A stretch of DNA of 64,000 nucleotides, taken from assembly GCF_033060595.1 (NCBI RefSeq), contig NZ_CP133038.1, forward strand, positions 1 to 64,000, in the 5' to 3' direction. This document shows, piece by piece, positions 15,442-24,000 of the stretch (position 1 is its first letter; every line of letters starts with the position of its first letter). The notes under the pieces are model-generated. The model worked only from the letters and a program-made list of their open reading frames with translations. It was not told where the DNA came from and did not search any database. The translations under genes were made by a program, and so were the position numbers. The stretch comes from Pyramidobacter sp. YE332 (GTDB taxonomy: Bacteria > Synergistota > Synergistia > Synergistales > Dethiosulfovibrionaceae).

Positions 15442-15528
15442 CTCGGAATTTTTGGAATCCTGCAAGCACGCTTCGGCAGCAGAGGCACCTATGTCGGGTC
15501 TGGGTGACCCAAAAAGGAGATCGTCCAA

Positions 15529-16476
15529 TTGAGAAAAGCGGTATTTGCGATCCTGTCAGTCGTCATGTTCTGTCTGCCGGCATGCGGAACGGAGGAAGCC
15601 CCGAGGCATGCAGAGGCGCGCGCTGGGTTGAAGCCCAACGGCATCTGGCTGACTCCTTTCTATTATAAGAACAGCATCGACGGCTTCCACTCAAACGCTG
15701 GAACTTGGGACTCCGACACCAAACTCTATGGCGTCACGTTGGGCTACAGCAAGCTCACTCCCGCAGGTCTGCTGGGGGCCGTTCTCAACCTCGGCAGGTA
15801 CGACGCTCAAGGGAAAGGCAGGCTGACGGGCAGCAGCGCGGAGGGCAACGTCGCCGGCTTCGGTACGTTTTTCGGCACGCGGCTGGGCACGTGGAACGTC
15901 ACGGCCAGCCTGTCGCATCACTGGCTGGACGGCAATCTGCGCGGTTCGGTGCGCGGCATTCCTTTTCAGTCCGACGCGGTGAAGGCGCGCATTTTCACGG
16001 CGGGGCTGAAGGGGTCGTTTTTGGGGCTGCATCGTACAGGCAGTCTCAAGGTTACGCCATTTCTCGGCGTCAACTACGCCCATTACGGCGAGGACGCCTT
16101 TACTGTCTCGATAGCGGCTCGTCCCCTGATCGACACGGGCAGCGGCTCATTCAGCCAATGGACATTTCCTCTCGGGCTGCATTTGGACTGGGATGCCGCG
16201 CATACGCCGACGGGCTGGTCGCTCAGACCGTCGCTCGAGCTGGCTTACGTGCGCGCGGCCGGCGATGTGGACTTCCGCACCAAGCTGCGCCGCATATCGG
16301 GCGGCGCAGGCGCAGTGGATTTCAACACGGCGATGGCCGACGAGAACAGTTTCCGCGCCTCTTTAAACCTCGAAGCTCAGAAAAAATGGTTTTCGCTGGG
16401 CGTCAAACTAAGCGGCACGCTGAGTTCCCACCAGCACAGCTTCGGTGCCGCTCTGACGGGGAAGTGGCAGTTTTAG
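15529..16476 (+). CDS. Outer-membrane beta-barrel protein (autotransporter-barrel-like)
   Basis: 315 residues from a TTG start at 15529, seven bases after AAAGGAGAT. Signal sequence MRKAVFAILSVVMFCLPACG, with a possible lipobox LPAC. The rest alternates hydrophobic and polar residues as in amphipathic strands (WLTPFYYKNSIDGF, KLYGVTLGYSKL, TWNVTASLSHHWLDG, VTPFLGVNYAHYGE, LRPSLELAYVRAAG) and ends in KWQF, a terminal aromatic as recognised by the Bam complex. About 280 residues match a 12-strand autotransporter barrel without its passenger, so it may be a stand-alone barrel or a passenger-less autotransporter. Function unknown. Confidence 0.75.
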   Translation: MRKAVFAILSVVMFCLPACGTEEAPRHAEARAGLKPNGIWLTPFYYKNSIDGFHSNAGTWDSDTKLYGVTLGYSKLTPAGLLGAVLNLGRYDAQGKGRLTGSSAEGNVAGFGTFFGTRLGTWNVTASLSHHWLDGNLRGSVRGIPFQSDAVKARIFTAGLKGSFLGLHRTGSLKVTPFLGVNYAHYGEDAFTVSIAARPLIDTGSGSFSQWTFPLGLHLDWDAAHTPTGWSLRPSLELAYVRAAGDVDFRTKLRRISGGAGAVDFNTAMADENSFRASLNLEAQKKWFSLGVKLSGTLSSHQHSFGAALTGKWQF

Positions 16477-16540
16477 TTTTTCGCTTCCCGGCTGAAAAAC
16501 AGACGACGGGCATCGTTTTCCAAGACCCGTGAAGCACTGA

Positions 16541-16670
16541 TACTAATTCTTGATAGAAAGTATTAACATAGTTTCCCGGGCGCTGCGGGGGAGTTCAGTC
16601 GCTCAGGACTATTTCGACCGCTGTACGGTCTGCGCAGCTCGCTTTATGAATCTCCCCCGCAGCGCCTCTG
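16541..16670 (+). repeat. Structured inverted repeat, copy A
   Basis: About 130 bases, nearly the inverse of 18984-19104. The outer end ACTAATTCTTGATAGAAAG and the following ATTAACATAGTTT are identical. The inner part can fold into a long hairpin (GGCGCTGCGGGGGAG against TCTCCCCCGCAGCGCC) with smaller stems inside. Between copies most differences lie in loops or keep pairing. Confidence 0.75.
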
Positions 16671-17068
16671 TATTCGGCATTTTAATTGAGAAATAGTATG
16701 GGGATCTTTGATTGGATCAAGAACCGCGAGTCCTTCGCCGTTTCCGCCGCGCCTCGGGACTCCTCCCGTCACATGACAAAAATGCCCGGCGCTAACGGTT
16801 GACATGTTAGCGTCGGGCATTTATTTCACTCCGCGCGGAAAGAAAAACTTTCCGCCGCCTCTTTTTTTCATGGCGGCGTCCCGTGGGACGTGGGAGGCCG
16901 CTCTTGTTTTCGATTTACTCGGTGTTCAGCAAAACCGCGGTGGCGCGCTCGGTCACTTCCGCCTCGAGCGGGTTGTTCGGCGCGTCGTCAAAAACCGCGC
17001 CGGCGCCATTTTTCGGGGAGTTGCTCTTGGCCTGAAAAATGTTTTTATGTCTTGGCAGATACGACGAA
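16671..17068. other. 398-base intergenic stretch with gene remnants
   Basis: Contains a 34-codon frame at 16698-16802 beginning MGIFDWIKNRESFAVSAAP without RBS, overlapping the terminator at 16780-16822, and on the minus strand a frame ending SNSPKNGAGAVFDDAPNNP...VLLNTE at 16915, directly downstream of the M15 peptidase. Both read like ends of real proteins but neither is complete; likely remnants. Confidence 0.35.
16780..16822. terminator. Terminator hairpin
   Basis: AAATGCCCGGCGCTAAC / GTTAGCGTCGGGCATTT, 17-bp stem with one G-U pair and a 9-base loop. Confidence 0.75.
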
Positions 17069-17554
17069 TCATCTTTCTCTTTTTGCAGAAAATTCCCGCA
17101 GCGCCTCCAGCGACAGATGTACATAATTCCGCCGCGGATCCGGCAGCACGGAACGAAAACCAAGCCGCCGCGCCAGCGCGCAGAAACGCGCTTGTTCGCG
17201 GGCGCCGATCGCCACGTCGGCCGCCTGGCCGGTCAGATGCCGGCTATGCGGCACGCCGCCGACGCGGGCGTTATGGCGGGGGCAGCGCCGCCCGCTGGTA
17301 AAGGTCAGGCGCTTTTTCCAGCTCGCCTGAAGCTCTGCCAGCTTCTTCAAAAAAACGGCGTCCATGCCTGCCGCGCCACAGCAGCGGCAGCACAGCGATT
17401 CCATCTGGCGGGCGTCCAGTTCCGCCAGAGCCGGCAGCATGCGGCTCGCTTCCGCTGTCGCCTTCGGGCGGCGCCCCGGCGTGCCGCCCGATTCTCCCGT
17501 CAAAAGCGGGACCACGAGCGCCGCCAGAGCGACCAGCAGCTTCCACACCTCCAT
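17069..17554 (-). CDS. M15-type (DUF882-like) peptidase with N-terminal membrane anchor
   Basis: 161 residues from ATG 17554 behind GGAAGGAGGTG. Residues 4-20 (WKLLVALAALVVPLLTG) are a membrane anchor or signal. The catalytic zinc motif of the Peptidase_M15A family is complete: TSGRRCPRHNARVGG, then SRHLTGQAADV (S-x-H-x-x-G-x-A-x-D), and a final YVHLSL supplying the last His. A Cys cluster LCCRCCG precedes it. These enzymes cut peptidoglycan peptides and are common as phage endolysins or envelope-remodelling proteins. It sits alone inside a segment bounded by inverted repeats, so a mobile or phage origin is plausible. Confidence 0.75.
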   Translation of the reverse strand: MEVWKLLVALAALVVPLLTGESGGTPGRRPKATAEASRMLPALAELDARQMESLCCRCCGAAGMDAVFLKKLAELQASWKKRLTFTSGRRCPRHNARVGGVPHSRHLTGQAADVAIGAREQARFCALARRLGFRSVLPDPRRNYVHLSLEALREFSAKRER

Positions 17555-17726
17555 CACGATCACCTCCTTCCGCGTGAAGTCCTCGCACGAGGGCAATATA
17601 AAAGAGTGCATTTCGAACGATATAAATACAAACAGATCGATCAAAACGACGCGAACCGACAGTGCCGCACAAGGCAAAACGCGGCGAAAGCCCGGAGATG
17701 AAAGGCGGGGGAACGGATTTCTTGCG

Positions 17727-17755
17727 TTGATTTTTTCGCCATCATCAGGTATCAT
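17727..17755 (+). promoter_or_regulatory. Promoter of the Ntn hydrolase gene
   Basis: TTGATT at 17727-17732, 17-base spacer, TATCAT at 17750-17755. Confidence 0.45.
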
Positions 17756-17847
17756 CACTTTCAAATAATACAGAGCCGCCGTGCAAGCCGTTTTTACGGT
17801 GGCGTGGCGCGCGGTGGGAAATCAAATATGACCAAGGGGGAATCAGG

Positions 17848-18937
17848 ATGAAAGGACTCAAAAGGCAGCTACTGATAGGGGCGGCACTCGTCGTTGTGCT
17901 CGCCGGCGTCGCCGGAGGCGTTTACGGCACACGGCTGAAGACGGTCGCGTCGATCCGGCGCATCACTTCTTACGACTCCGGCTACAATCTCTACCGTATG
18001 AACGTCGCGTACGACTACCGTCTCGACGATGTCATCGCGTCCGGCATCGCCGACGACCAATCGATCGTCGACGCTACGATGTCGGAAGCGCTTCCTTTCC
18101 TGCCGCTGCGCCTCAAGGCGCCGAATGCGCTTTCAGCGTCAAGAGCGCCGACGGCGACGCGCTGATGGGGCGAAACTACGATTTCAAAAACAACACTTCG
18201 GCGATGCTGGTCTACGCAACGCTGAAAGACGGCTACAAATCGGTCGCTTTCGCCGCGCTTGACAACCTCATGGCCAATGCTCCCGATCAAAGCCTCAAAG
18301 CCAAACTCTCATGCCTGGCCGCTCCCTTCGTCTGTCTCGACGGCGTCAACGAAAAGGGCGTCTCCATCGCAGTGCTGACGCTCGACAGCCCGCCGACGCG
18401 CCAGCACACCGGCAAGCCTGTCATCGCCACCACGCTGGCCATTCGCCTCGTGCTCGACAAGGCGGCCAGCACCGCCGAGGCGGTCAAGCTGCTGGAAGCT
18501 TACGACATGTTCGCCACCAGCGGACGCGATTATCATTTCTACATCACCGATGCCGCCGGCGACGGCCGCGTCGTCGAGTTCGACTGTCTCGACGAAAAGC
18601 GTCCGCTTGTCGCCACGCCCATGCGCGCCATCACGAATTTTTACGCGCTCTACAAGGACAAAGTGCTGCCCTATCAGAAGAACGGCGTATTCGGACGCGG
18701 CCGCGAGCGCTACGACACCATCGAGAAGATCCTTACCGAGCACGAGAACAACGTCACGCCGCAGATCGCCTGGAAAGCCCTCATCGACGCCTCGCAGGCT
18801 CCCAAAGAGGGGACGTGACCAGCAACACGCAGTGGTCCGTCCTTTACAACAACACGCAGTTGACCGCCGAGATCGCGATCCGCCGCGACTGGCAGACCGT
18901 ACACACCTACAGTCTGAAGACAAACGAACTCCAATAA
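17848..18937 (+). pseudogene. Choloylglycine-hydrolase/penicillin-acylase-like Ntn hydrolase, two frameshifts
   Basis: About 362 residues when repaired. It begins MKGLKRQLLIGAALVVVLAG (ATG 17848, AAGGGGGAAT upstream), a signal anchor. The Ntn core is CAFSVKSADGDALMGRNYDF, where the Cys would be the nucleophile, followed by VFGRGRERYDTIEKIL and QWSVLYNNTQLTAEIAI, a typical linear-amide C-N hydrolase layout. The frame breaks at about 18125 (expected GAA TGC, one G lost) and at about 18815 (expected ACG GTG ACC, one G lost), ending at TAA 18935-18937. Such enzymes hydrolyse bile-salt conjugates, penicillin V or acyl-homoserine lactones; the long N-terminal extension argues against a bile salt hydrolase. 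Substrate unknown. Confidence 0.7.
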
Positions 18938-18983
18938 CCTGCCGACGGAGCCTGATATTATTTCTTACTTAAAAAGCCGAACG

Positions 18984-19104
18984 CAAGAGCGCTGCGGGGA
19001 GAGATTCACAAAGCGAGCTGCGCAGCAGTCGAGCTCCTTCTGAGCGACTGAATTCCCCGCGGCGCCCAGAAAACTATGTTAATACTTTCTATCAAGAATT
19101 AGTA
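18984..19104 (-). repeat. Structured inverted repeat, copy B
   Basis: Inverse partner of 16541-16670; the first 34 bases from the outer end (104 back to about 19071) are identical. Together the copies bound a 2.56-kb segment with the M15 peptidase and the Ntn hydrolase. Confidence 0.75.
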
Positions 19105-19145
19105 CGAAGGATTATGAAGGGCTTCTTTATCCGTGCCTGAAAACG

Positions 19146-19190
19146 AACGCAGGGCGGAGCGAACGGGTATCGTTCGCTCCGCCCTGCGTT
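19146..19190. terminator. Strong bidirectional terminator
   Basis: AACGCAGGGCGGAGCGAACG / CGTTCGCTCCGCCCTGCGTT, perfect 20-bp stem with a 5-base loop, AAAA before and TTTT after. Confidence 0.85.
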
Positions 19191-19223
19191 TTCGGAAGGT
19201 CGGCAGATTCTTCGCAGCGGCGG

Positions 19224-19239
19224 CGTTCCACGCGGAACA
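19224..19239. promoter_or_regulatory. Degenerate parS-like palindrome
   Basis: CGTTCCACGCGGAACA differs from the perfect site at two positions, one in the central CACGTG, and is embedded in a longer stem (GCGGCGGCGTTCC...GGAACACCGCCGC). Probably weak or inactive for ParB. Confidence 0.3.
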
Positions 19240-19290
19240 CCGCCGCTCGACGTTTCTGTTTTTCCCGGCGCCGCGGCGGACTGATTTCCT

Positions 19291-19653
19291 CTATCGGCCG
19301 AAGAGCGCCGCAATCTGCTTGACGGTGTCGTCGAAAACGACGCTGAAAGGTTCGCCGGCGAAGAGGCGCTGGAAGGGGACTCGGCTTGCGGGGAAGAAGT
19401 AGCCCACCGCGGCCACGGCAACGACAACGACAGCCAGCCAGAACCAGAAGCGGCTCTTCCGCGGCGCTGTGTCCTTTTTCGGCGCCACGACCGCGGCGGC
19501 TTCGTCAACGCGCACGCGCTTGGGATCGGTCTGCAGAGGCGTCTTCACGACGGGCTTGGGCTGTTCGACGGGACGGGTCGCACCGCAGTAGGGGCAAAAG
19601 TGCTGCTCGTCGTTTTCGAACTTCTTTCCGCAGGATGTGCAGTAAATTGCCAT
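19291..19653 (-). CDS. Zinc-ribbon membrane protein
   Basis: 120 residues. The N-terminal zinc ribbon is MAIYCTSCGKKF...HFCPYCG (two CxxC pairs, residues 5-26), followed by a Pro/Lys-rich linker, one transmembrane helix about 72-92 (FWFWLAVVVVAVAAVGYFF) and a short tail of about 28 residues. ATG 19653 is 8 bases after AAAGGAG; an ATG two codons upstream is too close. Such zinc-ribbon/TM proteins are widespread and of unknown function. Downstream of and co-oriented with another zinc-ribbon protein. Confidence 0.7.
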   Translation of the reverse strand: MAIYCTSCGKKFENDEQHFCPYCGATRPVEQPKPVVKTPLQTDPKRVRVDEAAAVVAPKKDTAPRKSRFWFWLAVVVVAVAAVGYFFPASRVPFQRLFAGEPFSVVFDDTVKQIAALFGR

Positions 19654-19693
19654 TCTCATCTCTCCTTTGAAGTGATGCCGGCCAAACTGGCTT

Positions 19694-20461
19694 TTAGTTT
19701 TTATGATCCGCCCGCGATGCGTCCAGCAAGGACCGGATCAGCGCGTGCATTTCGCAACAGCGGTCGCACTCGTCCAGCTCCTGCCGGGTGCGATAATCGA
19801 GCGCGACGGGCGCGTTGAGGCCGAGGTCGGTAAGAAGCCCGGCGGGAGGCAGCTCAATGTGCGCTTTTACCTCGTGATACGCGTCGAGATGGGGCTGACG
19901 GCGCGCAATGCCTTCGGCGTGCAGCGGCAACGAAGGACCGTTGAGACGGAAGCGGATCCGCTTCGCCCATGGGTGGCTGGTCGTGATGACCTCCCAGAAA
20001 TCGAAGTAATGAAGAAAACGCGGCGGTTCGTAACTCTGCTTCTTGCCGTCGATCATGCGCTTCTCCTCGTGGCTGATGTGCTCAACCTCCAGCTCGACGC
20101 GCTCGACCTGCGCCAGAGAGACGAGGTCGGGATTGACGGCCAGCAGGTCGTCATCGGCATCTTCGAGCACGACGAAGCGTCCCCCCGCTTCGTCGATCAT
20201 CAGCCGCCCACCGTTACCGACTTCGCGCGAGCTCGAGAAGCCGCGCAGTTCCTCGAGGTTACGTTCGCGGTCCCGAAGCTGTTCGTCGATCTGCGCCACC
20301 GTGCTCTCGCGGCGCTCATCGAACCATGGCGAAAGCTTCTGTGCGCACTTCTTGCACAGATTGCCGTCCGCCAGCCTGCGATTGCCAAGCAGGCCGATCT
20401 CGCCGCCGCAGATGGAACAGATCTTTTTCTCGAAAAGTTTGCCGAAGAGTCCCATCCCCAT
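19694..20461 (-). CDS. DUF4428-type zinc-ribbon protein
   Basis: About 255 residues. MGLFGKLFEKKICSICGGEI and NLCKKCAQKLSPWF give the four Cys of a DUF4428 treble clef in the first 45 residues. Next comes a charged helix (RESTVAQIDEQLRDRERNLEEL), then a beta-rich domain with VVLEDADDDLLAVNPDLVSL and FDFWEVITTSHPWAKRIRFR, resembling short SHOCT/PH-like proteins. Several ATGs are close together; 20461 has the best spacing from AAGGGGAG. A -10 like TATAAT on the minus strand is at 20533-20538. Function unknown. Confidence 0.7.
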   Translation of the reverse strand: MGMGLFGKLFEKKICSICGGEIGLLGNRRLADGNLCKKCAQKLSPWFDERRESTVAQIDEQLRDRERNLEELRGFSSSREVGNGGRLMIDEAGGRFVVLEDADDDLLAVNPDLVSLAQVERVELEVEHISHEEKRMIDGKKQSYEPPRFLHYFDFWEVITTSHPWAKRIRFRLNGPSLPLHAEGIARRQPHLDAYHEVKAHIELPPAGLLTDLGLNAPVALDYRTRQELDECDRCCEMHALIRSLLDASRADHKN

Positions 20462-21008: not shown

Positions 21009-22392
21009 CTACGCGAACGTACATTTATCCCGACATGTGCTATGATATCCCTGCCTTTTGACGACGCCACGCCGCCATGGGTGGTCCGGAGCGGGCTTGT
21101 GCGCTTTCACAAGCCCGCTTTTCCGTTTCTTTGCCGATGCCTCATCGGAGTCGACTCGTTTTTGACTTTCAACCTCCTTCATCTCGATCCGTCTGCCCTT
21201 GGAAACACCCCAGATCCGCCCGGTCGACGTTTCACGCACCTCAACCGTCGTTTGGGCCATCCCGAGGCAATCGTCCGCCGCCGGAACGTACCGACGACCT
21301 CCGTAGGAGATCATGCCGCCGTGATCCGTCCTGCGAGATTCGCGACGCGCAAAGAGAAAATCCAAATCGACTTTTCCTTCCGGCTTCACATAAACGTCCT
21401 CTCCCTCAGCCGGATTGACGGCAAACTTCCGATTGTGCCTGGCGATGAGCTTGGGCAAAACCTCGTTGGCCGCCGTGATATCCGAGACGCCAAGCAGCCT
21501 CAGCTCCCCGGCAGCCTGTCCTGCATCGTGTTCCAAAGACGTTCGACACGCCCCTTCGCCTCCGGCGTCAAGGCAAAGATCTGCCCGATCCCAAGATCCT
21601 TCAGCCCCCGTCCGAAACAACTTAACGGCTCCTCCTTCCCCGCCTCATTCCCTTCATTTTCTTCATTCCTTTCATTCCTTTCATTCCTTTCATTCCCTTT
21701 AGTTCTTTCATTCCCTTCGATCCGATCCTCATCATCCTGCGCCCGTGCCTTTGGAGAGCGGAAAATCGTATGCCGGTCGCTGTAAATCGCCATCGGCAGC
21801 CCATACCCCTCGATCCCCATCCCCAGCGCGGCGACATAGCCCGCCATACATTCGTTCTCAGTGAAATAGGCGCCAGTCACCATCCCCGTCGCATCGTCAA
21901 TATAAGCGTGCAGCGTCGCACGCCCGTTCCCCTGCCAAACCATTCAAACGACGTGGCGTCAGTCTGCCACAACATCCCCGCGGCCACCTTCCGCGGTCGG
22001 GAACGGTGAAGCTTCGGCCGTCGCCGCACACTCTTCTTGCTCCTGATCCCCTCGTCCTTCAGGATGCGGACGACACTCGAACGGCTGATCCTGATCCCCT
22101 CCCGTTCGTTCAGGCATTCCGCAAAGTGAGAGAAGTTGAAATCGTAATAGACCTCCTCATACGCCTTCAGCACCGACTCCCGAACCTCATCTCCGATCCT
22201 GCGCCGAGACGTTCTGCCGCGGTTGCCGTGAACAAGCCCCGCCGCCCCTTGAGCGACGAACCTCTTCTTGATCCTGATGATTTGCCGTTGACAGAGCCCC
22301 AGCTTTTCCGCCGCCTCCCTGTTCGTCATGCGTCCGTCGACAAGCGCTCCGATAATCCTGATACGATCCAGTTCCTTTTGTGACAATGTCAT
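21009..22392 (-). pseudogene. ISNCY/IS1202-family transposase, two frameshifts
   Basis: N-terminal helix-turn-helix MTLSQKELDRIRIIGAL, NREAAEKLGLCQRQIIRIKK and GLVHGNRGR; then a DDE core with QTDATSFEWFG, AYIDDATGMV, YSDRHTIFRSPKA and AKGRVERLWNTMQDR; and a C-terminal APDHPWRR tail, the usual layout of this family (about 460 residues). ATG 22392 follows CAGGAGCG. The frame breaks near 21940 (GG-CAGGGG, one C lost) and near 21505 (CCGGGG, one G lost). Between the second Asp region and the catalytic Glu it carries an unusual Asn/Glu/Arg-rich linker made by a 9-base tandem repeat. Confidence 0.8.
21650..21725 (-). repeat. CATTCCTTT microsatellite inside the transposase core
   Basis: Tandem copies of CATTCCTTT and one-mismatch variants (plus strand) encode GNERNERNERNEENEGNE on the minus strand, just after SPKARAQDDEDRIE. 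Confidence 0.85.
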
Positions 22393-23775
22393 TCGCTCCT
22401 GTTTCATGAACGGTATTATCTCAGAGTGACATTTTCTTGGAACAGTTATGGGTGACTTTATCACTGAACAACGACACTCGCGGAGCGCGACCTTGACAGT
22501 CAATTTCCTGTATGCTAAGATTCATGTTTCAATTCACGCGCTCCTCGCGGAGCGCGACCGCCGCTTTGAGGGTTATTCAGCGCGTAAGCGACGTTTCAAT
22601 TCACGCGCTCCTCGCGGAGCGCGACCGATCTTTCAGGTTATCCACGTGCGACGCCGATGTTTCAATTCACGCGCTCCTCGCGGAGCGCGACCGCTTTTTG
22701 CCGGGGCTGGACGCCGAACGGCTGACGTTTCAATTCACGCGCTCCTCGCGGAGCGCGACCACAACGCCGAGACCCCCGGCGCGTCGCCGAAGTCGTTTCA
22801 ATTCACGCGCTCCTCGCGGAGCGCGACGAGACCAACGGCCCGCAGCGGGACCGCGTCGTCGTTTCAATTCACGCGCTCCTCGCGGAGCGCGACTCGCCGA
22901 AGAGCTACCTGCTGAAGACGTTTTTCACGAGTTTCAATTCACGCGCTCCTCGCGGAGCGCGACACGGCGCGCGCTTCGTCCATATCGTCGAGACTCAGTT
23001 TCAATTCACGCGCTCCTCGCGGAGCGCGACCCTGGCGATCTCCGAGGGGCGCCTCACGTCCATGCGGTTTCAATTCACGCGCTCCTCGCGGAGCGCGACA
23101 CGGGGCGGATGTGGTCTTCGTCGATCCTCCGTGGTTTCAATTCACGCGCTCCTCGCGGAGCGCGACGGGCACAAGCTGGAAATTGACGCCAGCCGCTACG
23201 GTTTCAATTCACGCGCTCCTCGCGGAGCGCGACACGCCTCGTGGCACAGGCGCAGCAAGCGCTCGCAGTTTCAATTCACGCGCTCCTCGCGGAGCGCGAC
23301 GTCATGCCGTTTCCCCGCCTTCCTTTTCAGCTTCCGCGTTTCAATTCACGCGCTCCTCGCGGAGCGCGACACGCTATCGTTCGGAACATCGGTTCCGCTT
23401 GCTGCGGTTTCAATTCACGCGCTCCTCGCGGAGCGCGACGCGGTGAAGGTCGCAAGCATCTTTTGCAGCCACTCGTTTCAATTCACGCGCTCCTCGCGGA
23501 GCGCGACGGACGTGAGCACCACCAAGTTCAGACTTTCTCCGGTTTCAATTCACGCGCTCCTCGCGGAGCGCGACGATCAGCTTCGCGACGTCGCGAAGCT
23601 GCATCAGAGTTTCAATTCACGCGCTCCTCGCGGAGCGCGACCAACGCCGTTGAGGACCATGCCCGCGCCCATGGTGTTTCAATTCACGCGCTCCTCGCGG
23701 AGCGCGACAGCTGTTCGAAGATGGTCGTGCGGTTACTCATTTGTTTCAATTCACGCGCTCCTCGCGGAGCGCGAC

Positions 23776-24000
23776 AGTGGTACTTTTGAGACGGGTATTT
23801 CCCCGCTTTCTCGAAGCGTTCCCGCGAAGTTCGTCGCAAGCTCTATTTCCTTGTGGCTTTCACAGTGTATCTTACAGGGATTTTCCGTGTTCCCATTAAC
23901 CGCGACGGCCTAGGGAATAGTATGACGAATTTTCTTCACAGCTGAATGGTTGGGCGTGCGTTTGCCGGATCACCGATTTTTGCGCGCTTGGGGTTCGCGC
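23776..24000 (-). promoter_or_regulatory. I-C CRISPR leader
   Basis: 225 bases between cas2 and the first repeat, without a gene. It contains several A/T-rich patches (TTTTCTTCACAG, GTGTATCTTACAGGG). By position this is the leader where new spacers enter and from which the array is transcribed leftwards. Confidence 0.65.

Follow-up and report, generated by a model that had tools for sequence, protein, structure and literature searches.

The RUP repeat of Streptococcus pneumoniae is described as inserting at TA-containing sites, and its movement in trans by IS630-Spn1 has been proposed (PMC2229807, PMC3049150). ISY100 moves by a cut-and-paste mechanism and duplicates TA (PMC2170065). The locus described here belongs to a Pyramidobacter species, a gut bacterium, and was analysed within a 64,000-nucleotide stretch of its genome, hereafter the window. 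Two inverted repeats in the window bound a 2.56-kb interval containing two hydrolase genes. The repeats are very probably two independent older insertions of a non-autonomous MITE, probably moved by an IS630-family transposase at TNA triplets, and the interval between them is not mobile.

Limits and family of the repeats

The first-pass annotation of this DNA described an inverted pair of 125-base repeats with 34 identical outer bases and a GC-rich inner hairpin. The inverted pair is borne out, with near-identical 34-nt outer ends. A 55-copy alignment with flanks and a profile support the outer ends that had been assigned and add the far end of each element, which had been missed. The MITE starts with TACTAWTTCTTGATA and ends with ...AATTGAGAAATAGTA, and its ~15-bp imperfect terminal inverted repeats (TIRs), TACTAWTTCTTGAT / TACTATTTCTCAAT, flank the GC-rich hairpin. 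The features of the two copies are as follows.

16541 to 16698, plus strand: copy A of the MITE, full length, 158 bp (55-copy alignment with flanks; profile positions 1-158; covariance model, 189.9 bits)
16541 to 16555, plus strand: left TIR of copy A, TACTAATTCTTGATA (alignment, TIR pattern, profile)
16684 to 16698, plus strand: right TIR of copy A, TACTATTTCTCAATT on the minus strand (zero-mismatch TIR match at 16680-16698; profile)
16578 to 16667, plus strand: GC-rich hairpin of copy A, the core stem of the MITE family (folding, covariation)
16538 to 16540, plus strand: TGA on the left of copy A as target-site duplication (TGG on the right, at 16699-16701, with one mismatch; profile)
18956 to 19104, minus strand: copy B of the MITE, full length, 149 bp (alignment with flanks; profile; covariance model, 150.8 bits)
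18987 to 19067, minus strand: GC-rich hairpin of copy B (folding)
19105 to 19107, minus strand: TCG, read on the strand of copy B, as target-site duplication (TCA on the other side at 18953-18955, one mismatch)

Copy B is without a 9-bp inner stretch that is present in copy A. The predicted hairpin is more stable than shuffled sequences in both copies, with z = -5.9 for copy A and z = -2.5 for copy B. Relative to the same-species genome G061, the window carries single-base deletions at 16495, 17707, 18809 and 19055 that are probably sequencing errors.

A blastn search with copy A, a check proposed in the first-pass annotation, returned 43 matches in the window's genome and revealed a dispersed family. 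With a covariance model of 158 positions, 69 matches were obtained in this genome, 61 and 59 in two congeners and one, marginal, in another congener. The counts take in both-strand matches and assembly duplicates, so that ~60 loci is a fair estimate for this genome. With more than 40 dispersed genome matches and ~60 loci by covariance model, the window pair is far beyond chance. The covariance model had no match in 36 genomes of other genera, blastn had none in 56 genomes of other genera, and plasmid and phage collections contained no match. The MITE family is genus-restricted in the genomes searched. Copies confined to this locus and lacking conserved structure, the outcome named beforehand as contrary to a repeat family, are not what was found.

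Identical triplets flank 37 of the 71 full-length MITEs from four genomes, a set that includes orthologues between two same-species genomes and is not made up entirely of independent insertions. Every one of these triplets is TNA (TTA 12, TAA 12, TCA 8, TGA 5), and all four middle bases occur. Control frames shifted by 1-8 bases gave identical triplets in 0-5 of 71. Among 60 further copies, mostly more diverged, 19 have exact duplications. The search for target duplications at the window pair succeeded in part; each copy has its own 3-bp duplication, and each duplication is imperfect by one mismatch (TGA/TGG for copy A and TCG/TCA for copy B). The element is non-coding, is 149-158 bp in length (below the ~200 bp typical of MITEs), is dispersed over ~60 loci, carries terminal inverted repeats at both ends and generates a target-site duplication of constant length, the 3-bp TNA. 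These properties identify the window repeats as MITEs with very high confidence. A family of structured repeat elements, one option in the first-pass annotation, was the right kind of answer, and the MITE is the specific one. The REP option from the same list was rejected: REPs are 20-40-bp palindromes associated with a RAYT (Y1) transposase, and the length, TIRs and DDE-type duplication of this element point to a MITE.

The interval between the repeats

The interval contains two genes, which match the M15-like peptidase and Ntn amide hydrolase on opposite strands that had been recognised from the sequence alone.

17069 to 17764, minus strand: Peptidase_M15_3 gene (Pfam; synteny conserved in two congeners that lack the repeats; outside the mobile element)
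17848 to 18937, plus strand: C45/AAT-type Ntn hydrolase gene (domain searches, congener comparison; lineage-specific, frameshifted before the Ntn domain; outside the mobile element)

The Ntn hydrolase frameshift (17848-18165) lies just before the presumed catalytic Cys and is common to both genomes of the species; the gene is either a pseudogene or a recoded gene. The 18809 deletion falsely truncates the C-terminus of this protein. Farther along the window, a CRISPR-like array occupies 22450-23910, where open frames have a recurring VSIHALLAERD / FNSRAPRGAR translation, and broken transposase-like frames adjoin it at 21009-22503 on the minus strand.

Two congeners, G001 and G003, have the gene order glutamate symporter, M15 gene, zinc-ribbon gene, with the M15 gene in the same orientation and neither repeat. 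The stretch 15442-16864, which holds an autotransporter beta-domain gene and copy A, has no counterpart in these congeners, and the G001 sequence resumes at 16864. The stretch from about 17632 to 19291, which holds the Ntn gene and copy B, has no counterpart either. Material was therefore gained or lost on both sides of the M15 gene. This comparison bears on the suggestion that the repeats are the ends of a composite transposon-like unit of 2.56 kb carrying the M15 and Ntn genes. The copies are inverted, and the outer flanking triplets, TGA and CGA, differ by one base, an ambiguity that lets a duplication around the whole pair fit equally well. Because of this ambiguity, synteny carries the argument. 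The M15 gene is in place in two congeners without either repeat, which makes the pair a coincidence rather than a unit; the repeats also occur singly about 60 times, and no second copy of the segment exists except as assembly duplicates. The composite unit is thus highly improbable.

The duplicates were considered as extra segment copies (at 2741781 and 2767605/2770054) and rejected as assembly redundancy, arising from a 26-kb end overlap at 99.96% identity and another repeat at 99.2%. Positions 2725241-2777081 of the contig (C1) repeat its start twice, an untrimmed circular-assembly redundancy in which 2751065-2777081 equals 1-26016 at 99.96% and the part starting at 2725241 aligns at 99.2%, with numerous gaps of a single base. 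Duplicate matches in this region are therefore not real copies.

An invertible switch was also proposed, with the segment turned around by recombination of the two inverted copies. The geometry is suitable, with 2.3 kb between the inverted copies and ~50 bp at 94% complementarity. The segment encodes no recombinase, and no flipped orientation occurs in G061 or the two congeners, where the M15 gene has the orientation seen here, which leaves a switch hardly credible. A rare homologous inversion may be compatible with a single assembly. The reading of two separate MITE insertions treats the 2.56-kb interval as a by-product of MITE density, about 60 copies in 2.7 Mb.

A resident IS630-type element and recent movement

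A blind search of the genome with the MITE TIR pattern returned 166 sites, compared with 6 when the pattern was reversed; several of the 166 were the ends of an insertion sequence (IS). This partner IS is 1,116 bp long and is present in nine ~99-100% identical copies in the window's genome. The IS and MITE have common ends; their interiors are not common. Two overlapping frames, which meet at a stretch of seven A, encode the IS transposase. Its open reading frames match Pfam HTH_33 and DDE_3, the HTH plus DDE_3 combination of the IS630 family, and the DDE part scores 138 bits against NCBIfam NF033545 (IS630; cut-off 100). Described members of the family are characterised by a 2-bp TA duplication with the TA outside the element, whereas all nine IS copies have perfect TNA duplications. 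Duplication of TNA in place of TA is the sole unusual point of the MITE/IS system. A narrow literature search found no report of a Pyramidobacter MITE or of an IS630 element with a TNA or 3-bp duplication, and we know of no report of TNA duplication for IS630. Homologues on Caballeronia and Paraburkholderia plasmids have TTA on both flanks, an arrangement that, given an asymmetry of one base, is also compatible with TA; a search for the ends of Rhizobium and Acidithiobacillus homologues did not find them.

Each congener that has IS relatives (G001 and G003) carries ~60 MITE loci, and the two incomplete congeners in which the transposase had no match carry 0 and 1. The IS at 2613375 and the MITE at 2614492 lie directly next to each other and share a TCA.

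Empty sites were sought by joining the flanks of each insertion with a single TNA and matching the product to the same-species genome G061. Six single-copy IS sites, a compound site holding one IS and one abutting MITE, and the site of MITE 2672925 are uninterrupted in G061, and MITE 1440742 is absent from it at an exact TCA. Each empty site contains a single TNA without an extra TA, which assigns the TA seen at either end of an insertion to the element itself. At the level of sequence comparison, these precise empty sites show recent movement of both the IS and the MITE. The young 149-bp MITEs at 1440742, 1452341 and 2614492 have equal covariance-model scores and have no counterpart among the G061 MITE copies compared. 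The site of IS 1606481 has no match in G061 and that of MITE 2099809 has a split match. The G061 matches of MITE 1452341 and IS 849945 fall in elements that are multicopy there and therefore do not represent orthologous sites; in the window's genome (C1), MITE 1452341 lies inside an apparent multicopy IS30-like transposase gene. Copies A and B are both present in G061, where the whole arrangement is 99.9% identical, and are older than the MITEs that are polymorphic between the two genomes. No transposase match was found in G061, a draft genome; the uninterrupted sites are independent of its draft state. Since G061 has MITEs without the IS, its copies were inherited or the IS was lost.

Shared ends, a shared TNA duplication, filled and empty sites within one species and a MITE-typical structure can each be read from the sequences. 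The IS is resident, has ends and a duplication that match those of the MITE and has moved recently, and we infer with high confidence that its transposase moves the MITE in trans. In the proposed mechanism, the IS630-family transposase, encoded elsewhere in the genome by the 1,116-bp IS, would recognise the shared TIRs and excise or copy the MITE, which would be inserted at a TNA triplet with duplication of the three bases. Movement would be by cut-and-paste, by analogy with ISY100.

Some IS5-group elements (IS1031) duplicate TNA. An IS5-type origin of the MITE was suspected from the triplet and then dropped once the IS630-like partner emerged. The window's genome does contain a 24-copy IS5-like element, and a different transposase of this sort, making TNA duplications, could mobilise the MITE. 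This is very unlikely: the IS5-like element has different ends (GGGCTTGTTTAAAAAAC) and uses those of the MITE as insertion sites, and it is the IS630-like element that has ends, duplications and recent activity in common with the MITE. The IS5-like element encodes DUF4096 and DDE_Tnp_1 domains. It has inserted into the ends of MITEs, at CTAA or a similar sequence, at C1 positions 308816, 956467, 1011805, 1353103 and 2342103; three of the MITEs that it hit are uninterrupted in G061.

The hairpin and comparison with known systems

The first-pass annotation noted that the hairpin arms stay paired despite differences and proposed a covariation check. In a 41-copy alignment, the consensus structure is paired in 96.8% of cells, and 7 pairs are changed on both sides, a level reached by 1 of 500 shuffles. 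With 60 further copies, compensations in the core stem number 78 versus a shuffle maximum of 64. Covariation thus exceeds shuffles, though pairing declines with copy divergence, and core pairing drops from 98% in the least diverged copies to 77% in the most diverged. The covariation may also owe something to the relatedness of the copies, to misalignment of old ones and to template-directed palindrome repair. We read this pattern as constraint on the mobile lineage that is followed by decay.

A transcript-processing role has been proposed for NEMIS/Correia repeats, and the MITE could likewise be a structured RNA or transcript-processing element that the host has domesticated, with a hairpin selected for a cellular role. 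Core-stem covariation in well-preserved and decayed copies alike, with its 7 two-sided pairs, is consistent with such a role, as is the interruption of long open frames by 25% of MITE copies versus 56% of random points. The loss of core pairing with divergence is what post-insertion decay predicts, MITE sites are polymorphic within the species, and relatedness of copies alone can surpass shuffles. Rfam covariance models gave no relevant match to 16000-20000 up to E = 1. Domestication is unlikely on this evidence, and the hairpin is probably important for the element and not for the host. A wider reading, offered tentatively, is that an IS630-type lineage making 3-bp TNA duplications drives a current MITE burst in Pyramidobacter, with a covarying hairpin that would be required for mobility and lost once copies become immobile.

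An apparent gene cassette resolves into two ordinary insertions, and Pyramidobacter is shown to have a MITE/IS pair whose filled and empty sites occur within one species. If biochemically true, TNA duplication would depart from the TA rule of IS630/Tc1/mariner elements and would help show what sets target and stagger. Decay of the hairpin with copy age can be used to examine whether the folding of MITEs benefits transposition or the host.

The Pyramidobacter MITE/IS is a RUP/IS630-Spn1 kind of system, ordinary in kind with one variant feature. Like NEMIS/Correia and ERIC, the MITE is a small (<200 bp) structured repeat bearing TIRs; unlike them, it has no Rfam sequence match, and its TIRs and hosts are different. 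The IS resembles IS630 and ISY100 in its HTH plus DDE_3 transposase, ~1.1-kb length and short terminal inverted repeats, and differs from described members, which duplicate TA, in that TNA is duplicated and the end TA is part of the element (PMC2170065). ISY100 has one transposase gene, and the Pyramidobacter IS has two overlapping frames with the run of seven A (PMC2170065). The MITE shares with RUP a length of ~100-160 bp, dispersed intergenic positions, high copy number, a tight fold that includes the TIRs and ends that resemble a resident IS630-family IS. It differs from RUP in sequence, host and the triplet TNA duplication, and in Pyramidobacter both the IS and the MITE have precise empty sites within the species.
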